From positions 72,582 to 136,581 of the forward strand of contig JAUXNJ010000009.1 in assembly GCA_030682795.1 (NCBI GenBank): DNA of 64,000 bases, given 5' to 3'. How positions within the stretch are numbered: position 1 is the stretch's first letter; each line of letters opens with the position of its first letter. The notes beneath the pieces were generated by a model that saw nothing but the letters and a program-made list of their open reading frames with translations, searched no databases and was not told the origin of the DNA. Below, in pieces: positions 32,763 to 43,332 of the stretch. A program made the position numbers and the translations under genes. The stretch comes from Sphingobacteriaceae bacterium. Lineage in GTDB: Bacteria; Bacteroidota; Bacteroidia; UBA7662.

Positions 32763-33401
32763 ATGATCCGAATAATTTCTCTTTTCGCAGTGATTTTTTG
32801 TCTTGGCCTCTCCCCCGCACTAGCGCAGGTAGATGCCTATGACGAATACCTGAATGGGAAAAAGCGTGGCCAAAAGTCGCCCAGCGGTGACAAAAAAGCC
32901 TTCAATTATCGCGAACGCTATCTGGCAGAGTTAGGGGCCAGCTTTTACTGGTTTGATGTGAACACGATCTACGGGCCAGCCACCATTACCATGCCCGGCG
33001 TCAATTACGTGGCCCGCTTGGTGCTAAACCAATATCCCGACAAATACAGCTTGAGCATTGGCACCCATCCCTCACTGGGTTTGCAATTCGGTAATTTCGC
33101 CAGTTATTTTATGCTCAGCGTGCCCGTTATGCTTGAAGGAACCATTGGCATGGGCAGTAGTATATACAATGAATCTCGCATTGGCGCATTTGTGGGCCTT
33201 GGTCCAGAGTACAACATTGCCAGAAGCTGGGGTGACTTTGCTTTGCCTGTGCGCATCGACCAGGTAGCGGCCGTGGCAGCTGTTGGCTTACGCTTTCGTA
33301 TTCGCGAACGAGGTTACTACTTGCGGTACAGCGAAGCCTTCTGGGCGCCCGTTCAAGGCCAATACTTCCGCACCATTGCTTTCGGTAATTCCTTGTTTTA
33401 A
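32763..33401 (+). CDS. Predicted outer membrane beta-barrel protein, unknown function
   Basis: The 212-residue protein has a signal peptide (IISLFAVIFCLGLSPALAQ) and a Gly/Tyr/Phe-rich body with alternating hydrophobic strands (YLAELGASFYWFDV, RIGAFVGLGPEYNI, AAVAAVGLRFRI, YYLRYSEAFW), ending in a terminal Phe. These features fit a small outer membrane beta barrel. I do not recognise the family. It precedes the glycosyltransferase gene by 15 bp and is probably in the same operon. Confidence 0.75.
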   Translation: MIRIISLFAVIFCLGLSPALAQVDAYDEYLNGKKRGQKSPSGDKKAFNYRERYLAELGASFYWFDVNTIYGPATITMPGVNYVARLVLNQYPDKYSLSIGTHPSLGLQFGNFASYFMLSVPVMLEGTIGMGSSIYNESRIGAFVGLGPEYNIARSWGDFALPVRIDQVAAVAAVGLRFRIRERGYYLRYSEAFWAPVQGQYFRTIAFGNSLF

Positions 33402-33416
33402 CTTGCCGCTTTTTGC

Positions 33417-35354
33417 ATGAAACTGTCGGTCATCATTGTTAATTACAACGTTAAGTACTTCCTCGAGCAGTGCTTATTGTCGGTACAAAAAGCCATAACA
33501 GGCATCGAGGCCGATATTTGGGTGGTTGACAATGCCTCGAGCGATGGCTCTGTAGAAATGCTACGCAGCCAGTTTCCCGGGGTTAGGCTCATCGCCAATG
33601 CCGATAATGTGGGCTTTTCGCGCGCCAACAACCAAGCCCTTCGGGCGTCGGAAGCAGACTATGTGCTGCTGCTGAACCCCGATACGGTGGTGGCTGAAGA
33701 TACCTTCTCCAAATGCCTCGCCTTTATGGAGGCTAGGCCACAGGCGGGTGGACTCGGAATTCGCATGTTAGACGGCGGCGGGCGTTTTCTCAAAGAATCA
33801 AAACGCGGATTGCCTACCCCTCGGGTAGCTTTTTATAAGATGTTCGGCATTTCGGCCCTTTTCAAAAACAGTCCCAAATACGGCCAATACCACCTTACCT
33901 ACCTCAGCGAACAAGAGAACCACCCGGTCGACATCCTTGCCGGGGCCTTTATGTTGATGCGCAAATCGCTGCTCAACCAAATTGGCTTGCTCGACGAAAA
34001 GTACTTTATGTATGGCGAAGACATAGACCTGAGCTACCGCATTCGTTTGGCAGGCGCCGAAAACTGGTATTTTGCTGAGAGTGCCATCATTCATTACAAA
34101 GGCGAGAGCACCAAAAAAGACTCGGTAAACTATGTGCGGGTGTTTTACCAGGCCATGGCCATTTTTGCCAAGCAATATTTCAGTGCGCGTAATGCCCGGC
34201 TTTTTGCTTGGCTCATTCAGTTTGGCATCTTTTTTCGGGCTGGAATTGCCTTGTTGCGGCGTTGGTCGAAATTGGCTTTCCACCCGCTGCTCGATGCTGG
34301 TTTGATTTACGGCGGCATGTATTTGCTTACCCAATTTTGGGAAAACAATGTAAAAGTAGATGAAGGGCTCATTTATCCGCCTATTTACATGCAGCTCATT
34401 GTGCCCATTTATGTGCTTTTGTGGGTACTCAGTGCGTATTTCAGCGGGGCCTACGACAAGCCTTTTCGGGCAGCCAAGCTGGTGCGAGGGCTCCTGGTGG
34501 GTACCATTGTGATTTCTGCCGCTTATGGCTTTTTCCCAGCCGATCACCGCTATTCACGCGGATTGATTGTAGTGGGTGCTGCCTGGAGTATTTTGCTTAC
34601 TGTATCCGCCAGGGCTTTGATGAATTTGGCTTTATATGGTCGTACCGGACTTACCGCCCCGCCCGAAAAGGGCACTTTGGTGGTGGGCTCGGCCCTTGAA
34701 ACCGACCGGGTGCATGCCATTCTGCAGCGTGCCGGAGTAAATCACAAGTTTTTGGGCTTTGTATCGGACTTGCCGGGTGACGAGGACAACGAGTTTTATG
34801 TAGGCCGCTTGGCTGATTTGCCTGAAGCCGTGCGTGCCTTGCGGGTAGATGAGCTTATTTTCTGCGGACGCGACCTCAGCAACAAACAAATCATTGGTTA
34901 TTTCGAAAGTCTTGGTGGCCTGGTAGAAGAGCTCAAAATTGTGCCCGAGGGCAGCGATTATGTAATCGGCAGCAGCTCGGTAGACTACCCTGGCGACACC
35001 TATACGCCCGACTTTAACCTCCGCATCAGCTTGCCTGCCAGCAAGCGTAACAAAAGGGTGGTTGATTTGGCTGCCGGTATGCTATTGTTGCTCGGCTTGC
35101 CTTTGTTTTTTTGGCTGTATCCAGCCGCGCTCCGGCGGCCACTGGCCTTGTTCCAGTTGCTTTTTGGCCAGCGTACCTTGGTTGGGTATCCTCCCCATGC
35201 CCAATTGCCAAAACTCAAACCAGCGCTTATAGATTTAGCAGCCGCCCAAATGCAGCCTGCCTTGCAATTGCGCATCCGTAAAAGTTATGTGAAGGATTAT
35301 ACAGCTTTGGAGGATGTGAAAATCTTGCTAAGAAGCTTTTTTCCGAAGCATTGA
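33417..35354 (+). CDS. Family 2 glycosyltransferase fused to a degenerate sugar-transferase module
   Basis: The protein has 645 residues. Residues 1-270 are a GT2 domain (VDNASSDGS, LLLNPDT as the acidic metal motif, MYGEDIDLSYRI), of the rhamnosyltransferase type. Residues 280-400 hold several membrane segments, as in the N-terminal half of polyisoprenyl-phosphate sugar transferases. Residues 420-510 look like the CoA-binding/Rossmann domain of the same proteins (LVVGSALETDRVHAIL, VDELIFCGRD). The end (SKRNKRVVDLAAGMLLLL, RTLVGYPP) resembles the sugar-transferase core but is shortened, so the second activity is probably lost. It converges on purD with 4 bp between. Confidence 0.85.
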   Translation: MKLSVIIVNYNVKYFLEQCLLSVQKAITGIEADIWVVDNASSDGSVEMLRSQFPGVRLIANADNVGFSRANNQALRASEADYVLLLNPDTVVAEDTFSKCLAFMEARPQAGGLGIRMLDGGGRFLKESKRGLPTPRVAFYKMFGISALFKNSPKYGQYHLTYLSEQENHPVDILAGAFMLMRKSLLNQIGLLDEKYFMYGEDIDLSYRIRLAGAENWYFAESAIIHYKGESTKKDSVNYVRVFYQAMAIFAKQYFSARNARLFAWLIQFGIFFRAGIALLRRWSKLAFHPLLDAGLIYGGMYLLTQFWENNVKVDEGLIYPPIYMQLIVPIYVLLWVLSAYFSGAYDKPFRAAKLVRGLLVGTIVISAAYGFFPADHRYSRGLIVVGAAWSILLTVSARALMNLALYGRTGLTAPPEKGTLVVGSALETDRVHAILQRAGVNHKFLGFVSDLPGDEDNEFYVGRLADLPEAVRALRVDELIFCGRDLSNKQIIGYFESLGGLVEELKIVPEGSDYVIGSSSVDYPGDTYTPDFNLRISLPASKRNKRVVDLAAGMLLLLGLPLFFWLYPAALRRPLALFQLLFGQRTLVGYPPHAQLPKLKPALIDLAAAQMQPALQLRIRKSYVKDYTALEDVKILLRSFFPKH

Positions 35355-35358
35355 ACGC

Positions 35359-36633
35359 TTAGTCGAGGTCGAAACCAATATCACGGCGGTAGTTTTTACC
35401 TTCAAATTGCACCGTTTCAGCCGCTGAGAAGCTTTTTTGCAAGGCTTCAGCTTTGGTGGCGCCATAGGAAGTTAGGGCCAGCACCCGGCCCCCATTGGTG
35501 AGCACCTCACCTCCTTCGGCCTTGGTTCCGGCATGGAAACAAAGCGAATCGCGCACCTCCGGCAGTCCGGTCATCACCTTGCCTTTTTCATACGCCTCTG
35601 GATAACCTGCCGACACCAGCATCACCGTACAAGCGTAACGCGGATCAAAAATGGTCTCTTCGGCACCCAAACGGCCTTCGCAGGCGGCTAGGAGATGGCT
35701 CAACAAGTCGCTTTTGAGTCGCGGCAACACTACTTCAGTCTCTGGATCCCCCATCCGGGCATTGTATTCAATTACAAAAGGCTCGTCGCCAACTTTAATC
35801 AAGCCAAAAAAGATAAAGCCGGTATACGCAATGCCTTCAGCCGCCAAGCCCGCAATGGTGGGCTGGATGATGCGCTGATCAACCTTCTCCATAAATACTG
35901 CATCAGCAAATGAAACGGGAGAAATCGCTCCCATGCCACCGGTATTCGGGCCGGTATCGCCTTCGCCAATACGCTTGTAATCTTTGGCTTCCGGCAAAAG
36001 CAAATACTCTTTGCCGTTGGTAATTACAAACATGGAGAGCTCTATACCTTCCAAAAAAGCCTCTACCACCACCTGAGCGCTGGCTTCACCGAATTTGAGG
36101 TCCTCAATCATTTCACGGAAAACCTGCACGGCTTCTTCCCTACTTTGGCAAATTACTACGCCTTTGCCAGCAGCGAGTCCATCGGCCTTGAGCACAATGG
36201 GCAACGCGTGCTGCTCAAGATAGGCGATGCCTTCGGCCAGGGTATCGCGACTAAAAGTCTGGTAGGCCGCTGTGGGGATGTTGTGGCGGGCCATGAAGCG
36301 CTTGCTAAAATCTTTGCTGCCTTCGAGCTGGGCACCTTCGGCGCCTGGACCGAAAAAATGCAACTTTTGAAGCGCTGGATCGGCTTTGAGCTGGTCGGCG
36401 AGGCCGCGTACGAGGGGCTCTTCGGGACCAGAAATCACCATGTCGATGCTGTTTTCTTTCACAAAAGCGGCAACAGCTGCGGCATCATTGATGTTGAGTG
36501 CCACATTGGTGGCCATGGTGGCGGTACCTGCGTTGCCGGGGGCTACGTAGAGGGCGTCACAAAGCGGACTCTGTTTCAGTTTCCAAACAAAGGCGTGCTC
36601 GCGACCGCCGCTACCAAGGAGTAAAATGTTCAT
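35359..36633 (-). CDS. purD: Phosphoribosylamine-glycine ligase
   Basis: The 424-residue ATP-grasp enzyme makes glycinamide ribonucleotide in de novo purine synthesis. The N terminus [19 protein letters not shown] fixes ATG 36633; the longer frame to 36720 is not supported. Other landmarks are [25 protein letters not shown], the [12 protein letters not shown] loop and [14 protein letters not shown] with the metal-binding Glu. The length agrees with E. coli PurD (429 residues). It follows fcl by 43 bp. Confidence 0.97.
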
Positions 36634-36676
36634 GCTGCTGCTTTTGTGGTTAATGTTGGTTTGGGAGGAGCGTTGC

Positions 36677-37609
36677 TCAAGCCTGATATCGGGTTTTAAA
36701 ATCGGCATAAGCCAAGGCAATGCCGCTTTTGAGGTCTATTTTAGGTTGATAGCCAAGCGCCATCAGCTTGCTCGAATCCATGAGTTTGCGCGGGGTACCG
36801 TCGGGTTTGTCGGTATTGAAACGCAAGCCGCCCGTAAAGCCAACCACCTCAGCAACCGTTTGGGCCAACTCGGCGATGCTCACATCGCTGCCGTAGCCCG
36901 CGTTGAGAAAGCCCGACTGGTTGTATTGGTCCATCATCACCAAACAAGCCTCGGCCATGTCGTCTACATACAAAAACTCACGCAGCGGCTTGCCTGTACC
37001 CCAAATTTCGACCTCGGCGGCGCCTGAAATCTTGGCTTCATGAAATTTACGAATCAAAGCTGGCAGTACGTGACTGTTCTCGAGGTCATAATTATCGTTA
37101 GGCCCGTACAAATTGGTGGGCATGATGCTTGTGAAGTTGCAGCCATACTGCGCACGATAGGCGTCGCACATTTTAATGCCCGCAATTTTGGCGATGGCGT
37201 AAGGCTCGTTGGTAGGCTCCAGTAGTCCGGTTAACAAGCTTTCCTCTACCAATGGCTGCGGGGCCAATTTGGGGTAGATGCAGCTCGAACCGAGGAACAA
37301 CAGCTTTTTCACGCCCTGCACATAACTTTGGTGGATGACGTTGTTCTGAATCATCAGGTTATCGTGCAAAAACTCCGCCCGGTACACATTGTTGGCATGA
37401 ATCCCGCCCACCTTGGCTGCAGCCAAAAAAACGTACTCGGGCTTTTCAGCTTCAAAAAAATCTGCCACCGCCTGCTGATTCCGCAAATCAAGTTCCTTGC
37501 TACTGCGCAACACAAAATTGTTGTACCCACGCTTCATCAAGGCCCGGTGAATGGCGGAACCGACCATGCCCCGGTGACCGGCGATATAGATTTTTGCGAA
37601 TAACTCCAT
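36677..37609 (-). CDS. fcl: GDP-L-fucose synthase
   Basis: The 310-residue short-chain dehydrogenase converts GDP-4-keto-6-deoxymannose to GDP-L-fucose with NADPH. The NADP-binding loop is GHRGMVGSA, the catalytic Ser-Tyr-Lys set is seen in LGSSCIYPK and YAIAK, and [10 protein letters not shown] is the family's substrate loop. It lies upstream of purD on the same strand and on the far side from the IVS-like element. The partner gmd (GDP-mannose dehydratase) is not in the window. Confidence 0.95.
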
Positions 37610-37646
37610 TGCTTAAATAAAACTGACTGCGAAAATACCGCTTTTA

Positions 37647-37688
37647 GATTTCTGATTTGTGATCTCGGATTTCAGATTTATGATTTTG
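37647..37688 (+). repeat. Heptad repeat, left inverted arm of an IVS-like element
   Basis: Six exact 7-bp units of the form GATTTNN stand in tandem: GATTTCT, GATTTGT, GATCTCG, GATTTCA, GATTTAT, GATTTTG. Bases 37660-37686 match the reverse complement of 38171-38197 at 25 of 27 positions, so transcripts can fold into a long stem. Confidence 0.9.
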
Positions 37689-37797
37689 GTTCGGATTCCT
37701 AATAAAATGAGACAAGTTTGGCTTGATAAGTTTAGTGTTTAACGCATTCTTTTCACTTTTTTGGTAAGAAGTAGTGGTTTAGCTTATTTTCGAAATA

Positions 37798-38166
37798 ATG
37801 AACAGACAACTTCTTGAAAACAGATTGATTGCATTTGCGGTAGGCATAGTGCGGATTACCAAACATTTGGATAACGGCATTGCTGGCCAATATTTTGGCA
37901 ACCAAGTCCTAAGGTCGGGTGGCTCGCCTGCTTTGCATTATGGGGAAGCCGTTGGTGCTGAATCAACCAAGGATTTTATACACAAACTAAGTGTAGCCTT
38001 AAAAGAATTGCGAGAAACATACAACAACCTCAGAATAATTCAGCAAAGCGAATTATGTAGAGAGCCTAAGCAACTCGATCATCTGGTAAAAGAGTGCAAC
38101 GAGTTGATTGCTATTCTATACGCTACCATTAAAAAAACGAAACAGAACCAACAAACTACTCCCTAG
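37798..38166 (+). CDS. Four-helix-bundle protein (23S rRNA intervening-sequence family)
   Basis: The 122-residue, highly helical protein belongs to the S23/IVP family (LENRLIAFAVGIVRI, the middle LRSGGSPALHYGEAVGAES, and KELRETYNNLRII). Relatives are encoded in intervening sequences of 23S rRNA genes, and the Avd protein of diversity-generating retroelements has the same fold. The biochemical role is not established. It is bracketed by inverted heptad repeats. No reverse transcriptase or variable repeat is nearby, so it is not part of a retroelement here. Confidence 0.9.
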   Translation: MNRQLLENRLIAFAVGIVRITKHLDNGIAGQYFGNQVLRSGGSPALHYGEAVGAESTKDFIHKLSVALKELRETYNNLRIIQQSELCREPKQLDHLVKECNELIAILYATIKKTKQNQQTTP

Positions 38167-38168
38167 GC

Positions 38169-38210
38169 CCAATTCATAAATCTGAAATTCGAGATCAGAA
38201 ATCCTAAATC
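38169..38210 (+). repeat. Heptad repeat, right inverted arm of the IVS-like element
   Basis: On the minus strand six 7-bp units stand in tandem: GATTTAG, GATTTCT, GATCTCG, AATTTCA, GATTTAT, GAATTGG. The arm ends on the stop codon of the hemerythrin gene (38209-38211), so the element abuts that gene. Confidence 0.88.
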
Positions 38211-38970
38211 AACCTGGGAGCCGTTTCAACACCCGATCTTCCAATTGCACCACCCGGTTGAGGAGCACTTCAAACTCCACGGCTTCGTGACGCAGAAGGT
38301 CTTTTTCGAGCAAAGCCAATTCTTTGTACAAAGAGCGTTGCATAATACCGGCATCGGCGGGCGGGGTGTAATGATTGGTGAGGTAGCGGGCCTGATCAAA
38401 AAAAGCCACATCATCGTCGGCACGCAAGGCATGCGCCACAGGCGAAGGCTTTTCAAAAAGGATGCGCGCCTCTTGTTCACTTAAATTTCCTTGCAAATAG
38501 TGTTCTAATTGCTCGGCATAAGGATAAAGCGAGTCTTGCTCCTGCAGAATGTGGTCGCTGATGTCGGCCCTGAAAGCCTCAAAACGATCACGCAACTCCA
38601 ACAATACGGGTTGGTCGGCCCCTTTTCGAACTACCAATTCCCGCAAAATCACACTCATGCGGGGAATGCGGCGTACTAAAAAATCGTGGTGCTCCGACCG
38701 AAGTAACTGCACCATTTCTAAGGTAGGCAGCGCCTTAAAGGTTGCTTGATTGTAGGTTTCGCCCTGCTCCAGCAAACTGAGCTGACGGGTCCATTCAGCC
38801 ATAGGAACACCTGTAGCGGTAACCACCTGACCCATGTTTGCGCAATTCATGAAATGCTCGTCTTCCACGCCAAGCTTACGCAAAACTTCTGCCATCATGG
38901 GAACCAGCCGTAGCAAGTCACAAATGCTTGTGGATTCGTTCAGTTGCATCTCCTCTTTCCGTTCATGCAT
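38209..38970 (-). CDS. Hemerythrin-domain protein (RIC/YtfE-like)
   Basis: The 253-residue protein (from ATG 38970) has an N-terminal helical domain of about 70 residues resembling ScdA_N/DUF1858 and a hemerythrin-like four-helix domain. Likely iron ligands are the His of SEHHDFLVRRIP, HILQEQDSLYPYAEQ (His and Glu), the His of YLTNHYTPPADAG and RHEAVEFEVLLNRV. This pattern fits di-iron proteins that repair Fe-S clusters after nitrosative or oxidative damage. The N domain lacks the CC pair of classical RIC proteins. The frame extends to 39081, but that stretch looks unrelated. Confidence 0.85.
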   Translation of the reverse strand: MHERKEEMQLNESTSICDLLRLVPMMAEVLRKLGVEDEHFMNCANMGQVVTATGVPMAEWTRQLSLLEQGETYNQATFKALPTLEMVQLLRSEHHDFLVRRIPRMSVILRELVVRKGADQPVLLELRDRFEAFRADISDHILQEQDSLYPYAEQLEHYLQGNLSEQEARILFEKPSPVAHALRADDDVAFFDQARYLTNHYTPPADAGIMQRSLYKELALLEKDLLRHEAVEFEVLLNRVVQLEDRVLKRLPG

Positions 38971-39165
38971 AATGACAATAAAAGCAGGCAAAAGTTTTGA
39001 TTCGTTTAAAATACAAGCATTTTTTGGCATTTTGGCGCCTTCGGTACAAGCGCCGCAAGTCTGCGTTCCGTGTTCGTTCAATCGATTTGCTGCCTATTTC
39101 CAGAGCGAATTGCGGCATTTCCTCATAATCTCCCAGCGAAATGAAGCGTTACGGCATAAATGGAC

Positions 39166-39173
39166 TATTTTTG
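39166..39173 (+). promoter_or_regulatory. -7 promoter element of the hydrolase-rlmD operon
   Basis: TATTTTTG is a full TAnnTTTG match, and CAGC separates it from ATG 39178, predicting a leaderless mRNA. The upstream in-frame ATG at 39160 precedes the box and cannot be the start. Confidence 0.65.
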
Positions 39174-39177
39174 CAGC

Positions 39178-39945
39178 ATGCAATTGTATTTCCAAAAAAT
39201 GGGCAGCGGCGCACCCCTGCTTATTTTGCATGGCATTTTTGGGTCTGGCGATAATTGGCTTACGTTAGGTAGGCGCTTTGCCGAGCACTATACGGTTTAC
39301 CTCATCGACCAGCGCAACCATGGACAAAGCGACTGGAGCGATGCCTTTAGCTATAAACTGATGGCTGAAGATTTACGAGAACTCATGGAGCAAGAGCAGC
39401 TCGACAGCGCACATATTTTAGGCCATTCGATGGGTGGCAAGGTGAGCATGTTGTTCGCCCAGCTGTACCCAGAGCGCATTCAAAAGTTGATTGTGGTAGA
39501 CATTGCGCCGAAATCGTACCAACTCAATGAGCACAAGCACATCCTCGAAACGCTGCAGGGCTTCGATTTACAGGCCTACCAAACCCGCACCGAAATCGAC
39601 CAGGTCTTGAGCACGCCTTTGCCAGACTACGGTACCCGGCAATTTATCCTCAAAAACATCTACCGCAACGAGGAAAAGGCCTTTACCTGGCGCCTCAATG
39701 TAAAGGCCTTGTACAAAAATCTCCATGAAATAGGCAAAGGTCTCGATGCCGAAACCCCCTACGACGGTCCCACCCTCTTTATAAACGGTGGCAAATCGCG
39801 CTACATCCAGCCCGAGGACCATGTTAAAATCAAACGAATTTTCCGCCGCAGCGAGCTGCTCACCATTCCCGATGCCGGGCATTGGGTGCATGCCGAAGCC
39901 CCGGAAGCCCTTTTTACAGCAGTTACCCATTTTTTAGAAGCCTGA
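39178..39945 (+). CDS. Alpha/beta hydrolase (YbfF-like esterase)
   Basis: The 255-residue cytoplasmic hydrolase has the oxyanion segment ILHGIFGSGDNW, the nucleophile elbow GHSMGG (Ser near residue 92) and the catalytic His in DAGHWVHAEAPE. The acid is probably the Asp in the VDIAPKSYQL region or near NGGKSRYI. It resembles E. coli YbfF, which hydrolyses acyl-CoA and small esters. The natural substrate is unknown. The stop codon overlaps the rlmD start (TGATG), so the two are coupled. Confidence 0.9.
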   Translation: MQLYFQKMGSGAPLLILHGIFGSGDNWLTLGRRFAEHYTVYLIDQRNHGQSDWSDAFSYKLMAEDLRELMEQEQLDSAHILGHSMGGKVSMLFAQLYPERIQKLIVVDIAPKSYQLNEHKHILETLQGFDLQAYQTRTEIDQVLSTPLPDYGTRQFILKNIYRNEEKAFTWRLNVKALYKNLHEIGKGLDAETPYDGPTLFINGGKSRYIQPEDHVKIKRIFRRSELLTIPDAGHWVHAEAPEALFTAVTHFLEA

Positions 39946-41357
39946 TGCGCAAGAAAAAAAAGACAGAAACCCAGTACCTCGAAGGCGCTGTGATCACCGA
40001 CATGGCCGCCGACGGTTTGGCATTGGCTCGGGTAGAAGACAAAGTGTATTTTATTGAAGGCGCCGTGCCGGGCGACGTGGTGAATGCGCGGGTGTTGCGC
40101 GACAAAAAGCGCTATGCCATGGCGCAAATGACGGAACTCATTACGCCATCTCCCCAAAGGATTGACGCCGTTTGCGAGCACTTTGACTATTGTGGCGGCT
40201 GCAAATGGCAAAATTTGAGCTATGCCACCCAGCTGGAATACAAAGGCAAGCAGGTTTATGATGCCTTGACCCGCTTGGGAAAGCTCGACCTCAGCGAGCA
40301 AGTGCGGGTGTATGGCTCAACACAGCAATATGAGTTCCGCAATAAGCTCGAATTTACTTTCTCGCCCAGCCGTTGGCTCACGCCGGAGGAGTTGGCCGAC
40401 GAAAGCATCCTCAAGCCGCAGCCTGGCGTAGGCTTTCACTTGCCGGGTCGTTTCGACAAGGTGCTGCACGTGGATACCTGCCATTTGATGGACGATAAGA
40501 TGAACCTCATCCGCAACCATGTGCATCAATTGGGTCTAGAGCACGGCTTGACTCGCTACAACGTACGCGAGCACCACGGCTTTTTGCGCACCCTCACCAT
40601 CCGAAACACCAGTTTAGGTGAGTGGATGGTGTTGTTGATGGTGGGTGAAGACCAGCCGGAAGCACTAAAGCTGGTGTTAGACAGCTTGGCAAGCACTTTC
40701 CCTTGGATCAACAGCCTATTATACGTAATCAACACCAAGAAAAACGACACCTTATACGACCAAGAAGTACTCGTTTGGAAGGGAAGCGACGTGATTGTAG
40801 AAGCTTTAGAAGATTTGCGTTTTGAAATTTCTGCCAAATCCTTCTTCCAAACCAACAGCAAGCAAGCTTTGGAATTGTACAAAATCACCCGCGACTTTGC
40901 TGGCCTTACCGGCAAAGAGCTGGTGTACGACTTGTATACAGGCACCGGCAGCATTGCCCAATTTGTAGCTGCTAAGGCCAAAAAGGTGATAGGCGTTGAA
41001 TATGTAGAAGCCGCGGTAGTAGATGCCCGCAAAAATGCCGAGAAAAACGGCATCAGCAATTGCGAGTTTTTTGCTGGAGATATGAAAGACTTGTTAAACG
41101 ACGAGTTTTTGGCCAAGCATGGTCGCCCCGACCTCATCATCACCGACCCGCCGCGTGCAGGCATGCATGCCGATGTGGTAGAAATGTTGTGTCGCATTGG
41201 CGCCCCTCGTATTGTATATGTAAGTTGCAATCCTGCCACCCAAGCCCGCGACCTCGACCTCATGCGCGCGCACTACCGTTTGGTAAAATACCAGCCGGTA
41301 GACATGTTTCCACAGACCGCCCACGTTGAAAATGTTGCTTTATTAGAAAAAATTTAA
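39945..41357 (+). CDS. rlmD: RlmD/TrmA-type 23S rRNA (uracil-C5)-methyltransferase
   Basis: The 470-residue SAM-dependent RNA m5U methyltransferase has three parts: an N-terminal TRAM domain (residues 1-70), an Fe-S-type Cys set (CEHFDYCGGCKWQNL, residues about 80-95), and a methyltransferase domain. That domain has the SAM motif LVYDLYTGTGSIAQFVA, TDPPRAGMHADV and the catalytic Cys in YVSCNPATQARDL. RlmD and RlmCD homologues cannot be separated by sequence alone. ATG 39945 overlaps the hydrolase stop by one base; an earlier ATG at 39882 would overlap the hydrolase. Confidence 0.93.
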   Translation: MRKKKKTETQYLEGAVITDMAADGLALARVEDKVYFIEGAVPGDVVNARVLRDKKRYAMAQMTELITPSPQRIDAVCEHFDYCGGCKWQNLSYATQLEYKGKQVYDALTRLGKLDLSEQVRVYGSTQQYEFRNKLEFTFSPSRWLTPEELADESILKPQPGVGFHLPGRFDKVLHVDTCHLMDDKMNLIRNHVHQLGLEHGLTRYNVREHHGFLRTLTIRNTSLGEWMVLLMVGEDQPEALKLVLDSLASTFPWINSLLYVINTKKNDTLYDQEVLVWKGSDVIVEALEDLRFEISAKSFFQTNSKQALELYKITRDFAGLTGKELVYDLYTGTGSIAQFVAAKAKKVIGVEYVEAAVVDARKNAEKNGISNCEFFAGDMKDLLNDEFLAKHGRPDLIITDPPRAGMHADVVEMLCRIGAPRIVYVSCNPATQARDLDLMRAHYRLVKYQPVDMFPQTAHVENVALLEKI

Positions 41358-41359
41358 GC

Positions 41360-41758
41360 ATGGAAGAGCAAGTTCCTGGTTCCAATCCGCTTTTAGAGAC
41401 GCTGCAAAACGACCTTACCTATTATGCCGACTATCTGCAAGGATTGGCGCGCGAAATACTCGACAGCGGCACCAGCAAATACCCGGTTTTTGTAGCGCAC
41501 CAACAAGAACGCGGTCTCGATATAGGCAAGCCCATCCTGCAGCACGCCCAAATTGAAACCCGCTGGAGCATCAATGTATCGCTCATGGAAGAGTTTGTAG
41601 CCAAGGGTATTGTGGCGCGTGATAAATTTGCCGACTTTAAACAAAGCTGGAAGGACCCGGAAGAATACATGTGTGTGTTTGTGTATGCAGGCACGGCGAG
41701 TTCGTTTGTGTACTTGCCGTATGAGCGTCCAGCACCTTCGGACGAGGCTGAGGCCTAA
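41360..41758 (+). CDS. Conserved hypothetical protein cotranscribed with rlmD
   Basis: The 132-residue, acidic soluble protein begins two bases after the rlmD stop, so it is in the same operon. It has no signal peptide or membrane segment. Helical N-terminal sequence (LLETLQNDLTYYADYLQGLARE) is followed by a mixed region (KYPVFVAHQQERGLDIGKPI, WSINVSLMEEFVAKGIV). I do not recognise a domain and do not assign a function. Confidence 0.75.
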   Translation: MEEQVPGSNPLLETLQNDLTYYADYLQGLAREILDSGTSKYPVFVAHQQERGLDIGKPILQHAQIETRWSINVSLMEEFVAKGIVARDKFADFKQSWKDPEEYMCVFVYAGTASSFVYLPYERPAPSDEAEA

Positions 41759-41832
41759 ACCATAGTTGACTTAAAGCTTTGGCACTGGTAGCGCAGGCCT
41801 TGGCAAATTCGACCCAATGCTTATCTTGCAAG

Positions 41833-42285
41833 ATGCAAAACGCACCCAGTCCTTTTCTTTTTAGGTTGATGCTGCTCAAGATGTTGCCGCTTGGCTTTAT
41901 TGCCGGGCTAAAGCTGCAGCGCGCCGATGAACAGGCTTGTTATGTGGGATTGCGATACAGCTACCTCACCAAAAACCCTTTTCGGTCGATGTACTTTGCT
42001 GCCCAAGCCATGGCGGCCGAAATGAGCACCGGGCTCCCCGCCTTGCTGCATTTGCGGGCTACCAAAAGCAACACTTCCATGCTGGTCACCGATTTTGAGG
42101 CGAGCTATTTCAAAAAGGCTGTTGGCAAAATCCAGTTCCGATTTGAAGAGGTGGCGGCCCTGCGGCAAGCCATCGACACGACAGGAAGTGAAGGCAGTCA
42201 GTTTATAGCCATTTCGCGCGGCTACAACGCTCAAAACGAATGCGTTGCCGAGATGCGCGTGCGTTGGAGTTTTAAAAAGCGCTAA
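41833..42285 (+). CDS. DUF4442 protein (hotdog-fold, thioesterase-like)
   Basis: The 150-residue protein fits DUF4442. Hotdog-fold landmarks are KMLPLGFIAGLKL, SYLTKNPFRSMYFAAQAMAAEMSTG and the final EMRVRWSF strand. Relatives are predicted acyl-CoA thioesterases. I chose ATG 41833, the conserved beginning, instead of the earlier ATG at 41779. A weak -7-like sequence (TATCTTGC) lies 3 nt upstream. The substrate is unknown. Confidence 0.85.
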   Translation: MQNAPSPFLFRLMLLKMLPLGFIAGLKLQRADEQACYVGLRYSYLTKNPFRSMYFAAQAMAAEMSTGLPALLHLRATKSNTSMLVTDFEASYFKKAVGKIQFRFEEVAALRQAIDTTGSEGSQFIAISRGYNAQNECVAEMRVRWSFKKR

Positions 42286-42313
42286 CAGCGCCAGCAGCAT
42301 TCCCTTTAAATCA

Positions 42314-42678
42314 ATGCTCCAAAGCATCCACCACATTGCCCTCATTTGCAGCGATTATACGCGCTCCAAGCACTTCTACACCCAAATTTTAGGCTTAGAA
42401 GTTTTGCAAGAGGTGTATCGAGGCGAGCGGGAGTCGTACAAACTCGATTTGGCGCTACACGGACAATATGTGCTGGAGCTTTTCTCCTTTCCCAATCCGC
42501 CAGCCCGCAGCAGCCGGCCCGAAGCCTGTGGACTCCGGCACCTGGCCTTTGCCGTGGAAGAGCTAGAAAGTGCCATCGAGCAGCTACAGAAACCGTTCGA
42601 ATTGACGAATACACCGGCAAGCGCTTTACGTTTTTGCAAGATCCCGATGGATTGCCGATAGAGCTGTACGAAGCCTAA
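42314..42678 (+). pseudogene. YaeR/GloA2-like VOC protein with a frame-breaking deletion
   Basis: The first frame (42314-42661) reads as a YaeR-like VOC protein: QSIHHIALICSDYTRSKHFY, YVLELFSFPNPP, SRPEACGLRHLAFAVEELESAIEQL. After about 42595 it becomes KPFELTNTPASALRF and ends early. Another frame takes over with ETVRIDEYTGKRF, FLQDPDGLPIELYEA, the missing C-terminal half with the last metal-ligand Glu. About five or six residues are also missing at the join, so a small deletion, not a homopolymer slip, best explains the break. The protein would lack its metal site. Confidence 0.78.
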
Positions 42679-42780
42679 GGCAGCAGAATTTTGGCTTTTT
42701 CAAATAAATTTTACAAAGGGGTCAATCCAAGCCCCCAACTCCTGCCGTAGATAGGGTAACATTTAAACAAACCAAAAAAC

Positions 42781-43332
42781 ATGTTACACAAAAACATCTT
42801 CCGCAGTCTGGCCATTGCCGCCACCGTATTTACCCTCCAAGCCAACGCCCAAACCGTGCAAGTAGGCGGAGAAGCCATGTATCCAGCTAAAAACATCGTT
42901 GAAAACGCTGTTAATTCCAAAGAGCATACCACTTTGGTGGCTGCCGTAAAAGCTGCCGATCTGGTTGCTACCTTACAAACCGCTGGGCCTTTCACCGTAT
43001 TTGCCCCAGTAAACAATGCTTTCGAGGATTTGCCAGAAGGCACCGTAGAGACCCTCTTAAAGCCCGCCAACAAAGGCCAACTCAGCGCTGTATTGACCTA
43101 CCACGTATTACCTGGAAAGTATGATTTCGACGCCTTGGCCAAAGCCATCAAAGCCGGTAAAGGCACTGCCAAAATCAAAACCGTACAAGGTGGTGAGCTC
43201 CGCTTCATGATGAACGGTCCACGCAACATCACTGTAACTGATGCCAAAGGCAATACTGCCAACATCAGCACTTACGATGTGTACCAGTCGAACGGTGTGA
43301 TCCAGGTGATCGACCGCGTGCTTTTGCCATAA
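42781..43332 (+). CDS. Secreted fasciclin (FAS1) domain protein
   Basis: The 183-residue protein has a signal peptide (about 21 residues, ending NAQ-T) followed by one FAS1 domain: TLVAAVKAADLVATLQTAGPFTVFAPVNNAFEDL, YHVLPGKYDFDAL and the C-terminal H2 segment SNGVIQVIDRVLLP. FAS1 domains mediate adhesion. Here the protein is short and probably exported to the periplasm or surface. The ligand is unknown. It has no T9SS sorting domain. Confidence 0.93.
   Translation: MLHKNIFRSLAIAATVFTLQANAQTVQVGGEAMYPAKNIVENAVNSKEHTTLVAAVKAADLVATLQTAGPFTVFAPVNNAFEDLPEGTVETLLKPANKGQLSAVLTYHVLPGKYDFDALAKAIKAGKGTAKIKTVQGGELRFMMNGPRNITVTDAKGNTANISTYDVYQSNGVIQVIDRVLLP

Follow-up and report, generated by a model that had tools for sequence, protein, structure and literature searches.

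We propose that the S23 protein is the protein partner of heptad repeats, the S23 gene inside its repeat arms and the gene-less arrays elsewhere in the genome making up a two-part system that follows the logic of RAYT and REPIN with unrelated parts, and we give this reading a probability of roughly 0.55. Since the same plan, with different heptads, recurs in well over 100 S23 genes across distant bacteria, S23 is probably the partner that was lacking for the heptamer repeats found dispersed in the genomes of many bacteria. This may tie together two old puzzles, namely the function of S23 proteins, whose structures have been solved and whose role is not known (PMC4990558), and the heptamers that have been described with no known protein partner (PMC4692102, PMC4679880). 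The architecture of the elements, their period of 7, the unit common to both arms and specific to its lineage, the stop-codon position, and the gene-less hairpins carrying the resident unit are all directly observed.

The element of the window (the whole 64,000-nucleotide stretch of DNA analysed here) is 564 nt long in total and consists of one S23 gene between two inverted heptad arms (Table 1). Each arm has 43 nt, the two are 86% complementary at a spacing of 478 nt, and none of 2000 shuffles of the flanks exceeded an inverted-repeat score of 35 where the real arms reach 56, which bears out the inverted arms that an earlier note on this DNA had read around the gene. That note had counted six GATTTNN heptads per side; there are indeed six on each side, not all of them exactly GATTTNN, namely GATTTCT, GATTTGT, GATCTCG, GATTTCA, GATTTAT, and GATTTTG in the left arm and, reverse-complemented, GATTTAG, GATTTCT, GATCTCG, AATTTCA, GATTTAT, and GAATTGG in the right arm. 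The right arm ends, as had been claimed, on the stop codon of the hemerythrin gene, more exactly on its second base (TGA 38211-38209, minus strand), and the S23 gene is antisense relative to both neighbours. No Rfam family match was found within positions 33000-43000 of the window, and therefore the element lies outside rRNA, with protein genes flanking it on both sides.

Table 1. Features of the S23 element and its two neighbours, in window positions
Feature	Positions	Strand	Basis
Left (5') arm, six tandem heptads, unit GATTTNN	37647..37689	+	Sequence reading; inverted-repeat score
Leader, left arm to S23 start codon	37690..37797	+	Also aligns with congener G001
S23/IVP four-helix-bundle gene, 122 aa	37798..38166	+	Family profiles, AlphaFold2, dN/dS against G001
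Right (3') arm, six inverted heptads, last two bases inside the hemerythrin stop codon	38168..38210	-	
Left neighbour, GDP-fucose synthase/epimerase-like gene (context, outside the element)	36677..37609	-	Name from translation reading; order kept in G001
Right neighbour, hemerythrin-like gene (context; 5' end uncertain)	38209..39081	-	

The window gene matches the family profile TIGR02436 with 82.4 bits (cut-off 24) and PF05635 with 49 bits (cut-off 33.8), the latter being its sole Pfam match, and AlphaFold2 models its product confidently as a helical bundle (pLDDT 94.5). A structure search with this model ranked two S23 structures of the PDB, 2RLD and 2GSC, first and Avd next; the reading of the gene as an S23/IVP-type four-helix bundle is thereby confirmed. 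Solved relatives such as 2RLD and 2GSC are homopentamers, with five chains each (PMC4990558). Avd, which belongs to the diversity-generating retroelements (PDB 4DWL, 8UB7) and has the same fold as S23 according to the structure search, works with a reverse transcriptase on a template repeat; no reverse transcriptase was noted among the genes beside the window S23 gene. Between the window protein and the S23 protein of the congener G001, only 4 of 122 residues differ (dN 0.014, dS 0.47), and purifying selection on the gene is strong; for the hemerythrin protein next to it, identity between the two genomes is 88%.

The window genome (G000, 3.1 Mb) has one S23 gene and 55 matches to three consecutive GATTTNN heptads, located at about 24 further places without an S23 gene, mostly single intergenic arrays with an inverted partner in 3 of the 24 under a strict rule. 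Because these gene-less arrays are present in the same genome, the arms are not unique to the S23 gene. In the congener, the S23 gene and its arms have the same position and gene order; its right arm lacks AATTTCA and has an additional GATCTCG at an unchanged total length, the arms having gained and lost whole heptads between the two genomes. Among 25 genomes in which the pattern was counted, it occurs 55 times in G000 and 47 times in G001, both of which have this S23, 2 times in G002, the third species of the genus, and not at all in their other relatives within the family and order; genomes further out have 0 to 9 matches. By these counts the dispersed GATTTNN arrays co-occur with this S23 lineage, G000 and G001 standing for one evolutionary event. 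The earlier note had held that gene-less arms found genome-wide with no link to insertion would speak against it: arrays without the gene do exist genome-wide, which bears out half of this objection, and the link that emerges is to the lineage of the gene, not to this insertion. We rejected the view that the arms are a genome-wide repeat regardless of the gene, given that units differ among the elements of one genome and GATTTNN follows the gene lineage. Beside the arrays of the window genome lie other repeats, and many arrays (L113, L116, L126, L128, L130, L133) are joined to a second tandem repeat with CACGGAG-type units and a period of about 9 (CACGGAGGTCACGGAGGACACGGAG), while other shared blocks (at L118, L125, L129, L131 and L114, L119, L122) consist of CTGCTAAAAATGATCATTCCGGGCAG and TTTTAGGCATCATCA.

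The general plan was examined in 256 distinct S23 genes drawn from the same class, from 80 named genome contigs of many phyla, from Flavobacterium, from a gammaproteobacterial family, and from cyanobacterial plasmids, with relatedness among the sampled genes inflating several of the counts. Inverted arms with a score of at least 28 flank 164 of the 256, the 95% and 99% points of mismatched controls being 23 and 35, and the best period is 7 or 14 in 138 of these 164 armed genes; about a third of all 256 have no clear inverted arms, and in some none are detectable. In an earlier set of 92, identity was 0.66 at lag 7 and 0.68 at lag 14, against 0.24 to 0.29 at the other lags from 2 to 15, and the flanks of all 256 genes, taken without any selection for arms, peak at lags 7 and 14 only. 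An arm has a median of 4.9 heptads, five being the commonest count on both sides, and the median element measures 454 nt from arm to arm. Heptads are more similar between the two arms of one element (0.724) than between elements (0.460) or between elements of one genome (0.435). The arm before the S23 gene is poor in C (7%), and the arm behind it is poor in G. The elements fill intergenic junctions, with a median of 4 nt from stop codon to arm and about 10 nt from arm to the next start, and recur at fadB-fadA, fadA-fadE, sufB-sufC, sdhA-sdhB, carA-carB, accB-accC, and dnaK-dnaJ (names from neighbour translations). Two unusual forms were also seen: very large arms in Vreelandella sedimenti, where over 80 GTGAGTT heptads follow one another on one flank of an S23 gene (L213; G102 contig 12, 25060-26229), and two similar S23 elements with AATGGTT arms standing in tandem 2 kb apart in G018 (L096).

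Gain and loss can be followed at the fad operon of Flavobacterium, where we compared the fadB-fadA junction of 30 genomes with a nearly identical fadB end. This junction is empty (4 nt) in L253 and L263. In other genomes, inverted heptads with the unit AGAATAN or AAGAAGC form a gene-less hairpin there, about 90 nt long, or two hairpins in a row; in others again there is an S23 element with AGTATTA or TGTATAN arms, a decayed element, or unrelated sequence. Since a single junction can be empty, carry a hairpin that lacks the gene, or carry an S23 element, units of this kind are gained and lost; no target-site duplication was identified at the Flavobacterium junctions with an empty state, nor for the window copy. 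The earlier idea of a mobile unit is supported here, but not for the window copy, whose empty site was not seen in relatives; the congener carries the same gene and arms at that place, for which reason we dropped the idea that this copy has moved.

The neighbouring fadA-fadE junction is often filled by an S23 element, whose arms share their unit with the gene-less hairpin 1.2 kb upstream at fadB-fadA in 11 of 12 informative genomes, read by eye (Fisher p about 0.01, calculated by hand with relatedness ignored). On an S23 tree built from 47 Flavobacterium elements, every unit is specific to a single clade, and most sites have one clade only, although at least L237, an AGTGATT-clade element, lies at another site and still carries AGTGATT; because S23 clades mostly keep to one site, clade is confounded with site and unit. 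The AAGAAGC unit in the S23 element goes with a higher frequency of AAGAAGC arrays in the genome (p = 0.002), AGAATA arrays lean the same way (p = 0.06), and arrays also occur in some Flavobacterium genomes that have no S23 of matching unit, as judged from the S23 genes of the fad operon. We do not claim a general correlation of protein with heptad similarity at different sites, since over all different-site pairs it is weak (Mantel r 0.084, null sd 0.062) and seen among close proteins only. Where fadA-fadE has no S23 (L285, L286, L287, L292, L296, L298), it holds a different palindromic repeat of the GTCATTTCGACGAAGGAGAAATC type, which makes this junction a general insertion hotspot.

Heptamers have been published independently of S23, as GGGNATC in Xanthomonas and GGGGA(C/T)T in Nostoc (PMC4692102) and as TAACTGA in Beggiatoaceae (PMC4679880), and Xanthomonas campestris has 186 GGGAATC-type arrays, with 70 cases of inverted pairs and no known function (PMC4692102). 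All of these resemble S23 arms in unit length and intergenic location, and those of X. campestris do so also in their inverted pairs and in lying near the 5' neighbour ORF (28 nt on average), most of the arrays having about four units. They were described without S23, which is not mentioned in PMC4692102 or PMC4679880, whereas here XCC0516-like S23 genes lie inside GGGAATN arms; a search of the open-access literature, with subscription journals outside its scope, found no paper linking S23, IVS, and heptamers. XCC0516 is the S23 protein of structure 2GSC and is encoded in the X. campestris genome itself. GGGAATN arms surround the two tested S23 genes whose products are most similar to it (131 and 144 bits), these flanks being those of the relatives and not of XCC0516, and this pair belongs to a clade with the GGGAATN unit located mostly at accB-accC; less similar S23 proteins (78 and 90 bits) go with other units. 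One genome rich in the Xanthomonas repeat, G600, came from a search of Gammaproteobacteria, and in its family, which appears to be Xanthomonadaceae, S23 is present in 68 of 197 genomes. At accB-accC, G600 has a frame-broken S23 gene within inverted GGGAATC arms (L332). The same genome has a gene-less GGGAATC hairpin at another place.

A close parallel is the REP/REPIN system with its RAYT (TnpA-REP) gene, which likewise has a conserved single gene flanked by repeats and dispersed gene-less copies of the flanking repeat, often as inverted pairs (PMC3116915, PMC8266576). In contrast, S23 has no HUH or other nuclease domain, and its repeat is a tandem heptad rather than an imperfect palindrome; the window element has dispersed gene-less copies of its repeat and no HUH tyrosine transposase gene, PF05635 being the only Pfam match. 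In the two-part system that we propose, the S23 protein would recognise its own heptad array as nucleic acid, and the natural model would be a pentameric ring with one heptad per subunit, because five is both the number of subunits in the rings of solved S23 proteins and the commonest number of heptads in an array. Binding of the array by such a ring is suggested by relatives that are pentamers, by the preference for five units, by the fold shared with Avd, and by the way the unit follows the protein lineage. Bound S23 might maintain or spread arrays in trans, for which we propose the help of a host enzyme because S23 has no known catalytic domain, and the S23 gene itself would be mostly inherited in place and usually transcribed by read-through from the upstream gene. 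In its strongest form, S23 and the heptamers would be one two-component system, in which a five-membered ring reads a five-unit array with one heptad per subunit and a specificity that changes between lineages, and copies or maintains arrays at stop-codon junctions genome-wide by a mechanism unlike that of known transposases; this fuller version is tentative, and we put the odds somewhat against it. Should S23 bind the heptad found in its own arms, the flanks of each S23 gene would predict its target sequence, and the function of S23 could then be tested by a simple binding assay, with many natural protein-site pairs for learning the rules of recognition.

An unlikely alternative, though one that deserves serious weight, is that S23 is a ring-shaped RNA binder acting as a post-transcriptional regulator of heptad arrays in mRNAs, its own included, so that the dispersed arrays would be a regulon and not mobile DNA. 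A regulator would suit the purifying selection on S23, the fold relative Avd as a member of a reverse-transcriptase ribonucleoprotein, and the regulator already proposed for the TAACTGA arrays of Beggiatoaceae (PMC4679880). It would also suit the core-operon junctions (fad, suf, sdh, car, acc, dnaK-dnaJ) and the orientation of the elements there, given that S23 is co-oriented with same-direction neighbours in 101 of 103 cases and at 41 of 43 distinct sites, the two exceptions being the window element and one in Nostoc edaphicum; this count of 101 to 2 follows a strict neighbour rule and replaces the 134 to 1 of a loose rule. However, the window copy is antisense to both neighbours, and in near-identical Flavobacterium genomes one junction is patchily occupied and changes its unit, a picture closer to turnover than to a conserved regulon. 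A role at the RNA level, or a need for read-through, is favoured by the near-uniform sense orientation and by the conservation of the operon sites, and mobility by the patchy turnover at one junction; a RAYT-like spread or maintenance in trans and a regulation of array-bearing transcripts are both possible, and the data do not separate them.

Quite improbable, in our view, is a selfish element of the kind found as intervening sequences (IVS) in 23S rRNA, where RNase III would cut out the RNA stem formed by the arms and so make insertion into an operon harmless, with S23 aiding movement. The resemblance is real, since IVS of 23S rRNA that encode S23p, such as that of Coxiella burnetii (428 nt; PMC4990558), likewise hold an S23-family gene within complementary terminal repeats at a similar size, and the plan that the earlier note had recognised outside rRNA proves widespread among S23 genes. 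The termini of the window element are complementary and stem-forming, pairing in predicted single-stranded RNA (-163 kcal/mol, z = -5.4), and the near-uniform sense orientation and the site found both empty and filled would also fit. But heptad elements lie between protein genes instead of within an rRNA helix, have gene-less copies elsewhere in the genome, and build their arms from tandem heptads, which a plain IVS stem does not need; the comparison misses this central feature, the seven-base unit that each S23 lineage has as its own. Moreover, most S23 clades are inherited in place, and single-base arm mismatches on the sense strand have no G-U bias (48 vs 91). The arms fold as a stem in prediction, as the note had suggested, and we rejected selection of this stem in sense RNA because the G-U test went the opposite way. 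Least probable is that slippage during replication and template switching produced the heptads at stop-codon junctions, with S23 there by chance, for although whole heptads were gained and lost between G000 and G001 and short tandem repeats of heptads are frequent in many genomes (PMC4692102, PMC4679880), this leaves unexplained the 138 period-7 arm pairs around one protein family, the lineage-specific units, and the restriction of arrays to genomes with a matching S23.

The S23 arms of cyanobacteria have units such as GGGAGTA, GGGTGTA, GGTGACA, and similar ones. On cyanobacterial plasmids, the cas6-cas4 junction of CRISPR operons holds an S23 gene with heptad arms in Anabaena sp. 90 (L354) and in Pseudanabaena galeata (L356), and on the Anabaena sp. 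90 plasmid an annotated type I-D cas1 adjoins the S23 element.
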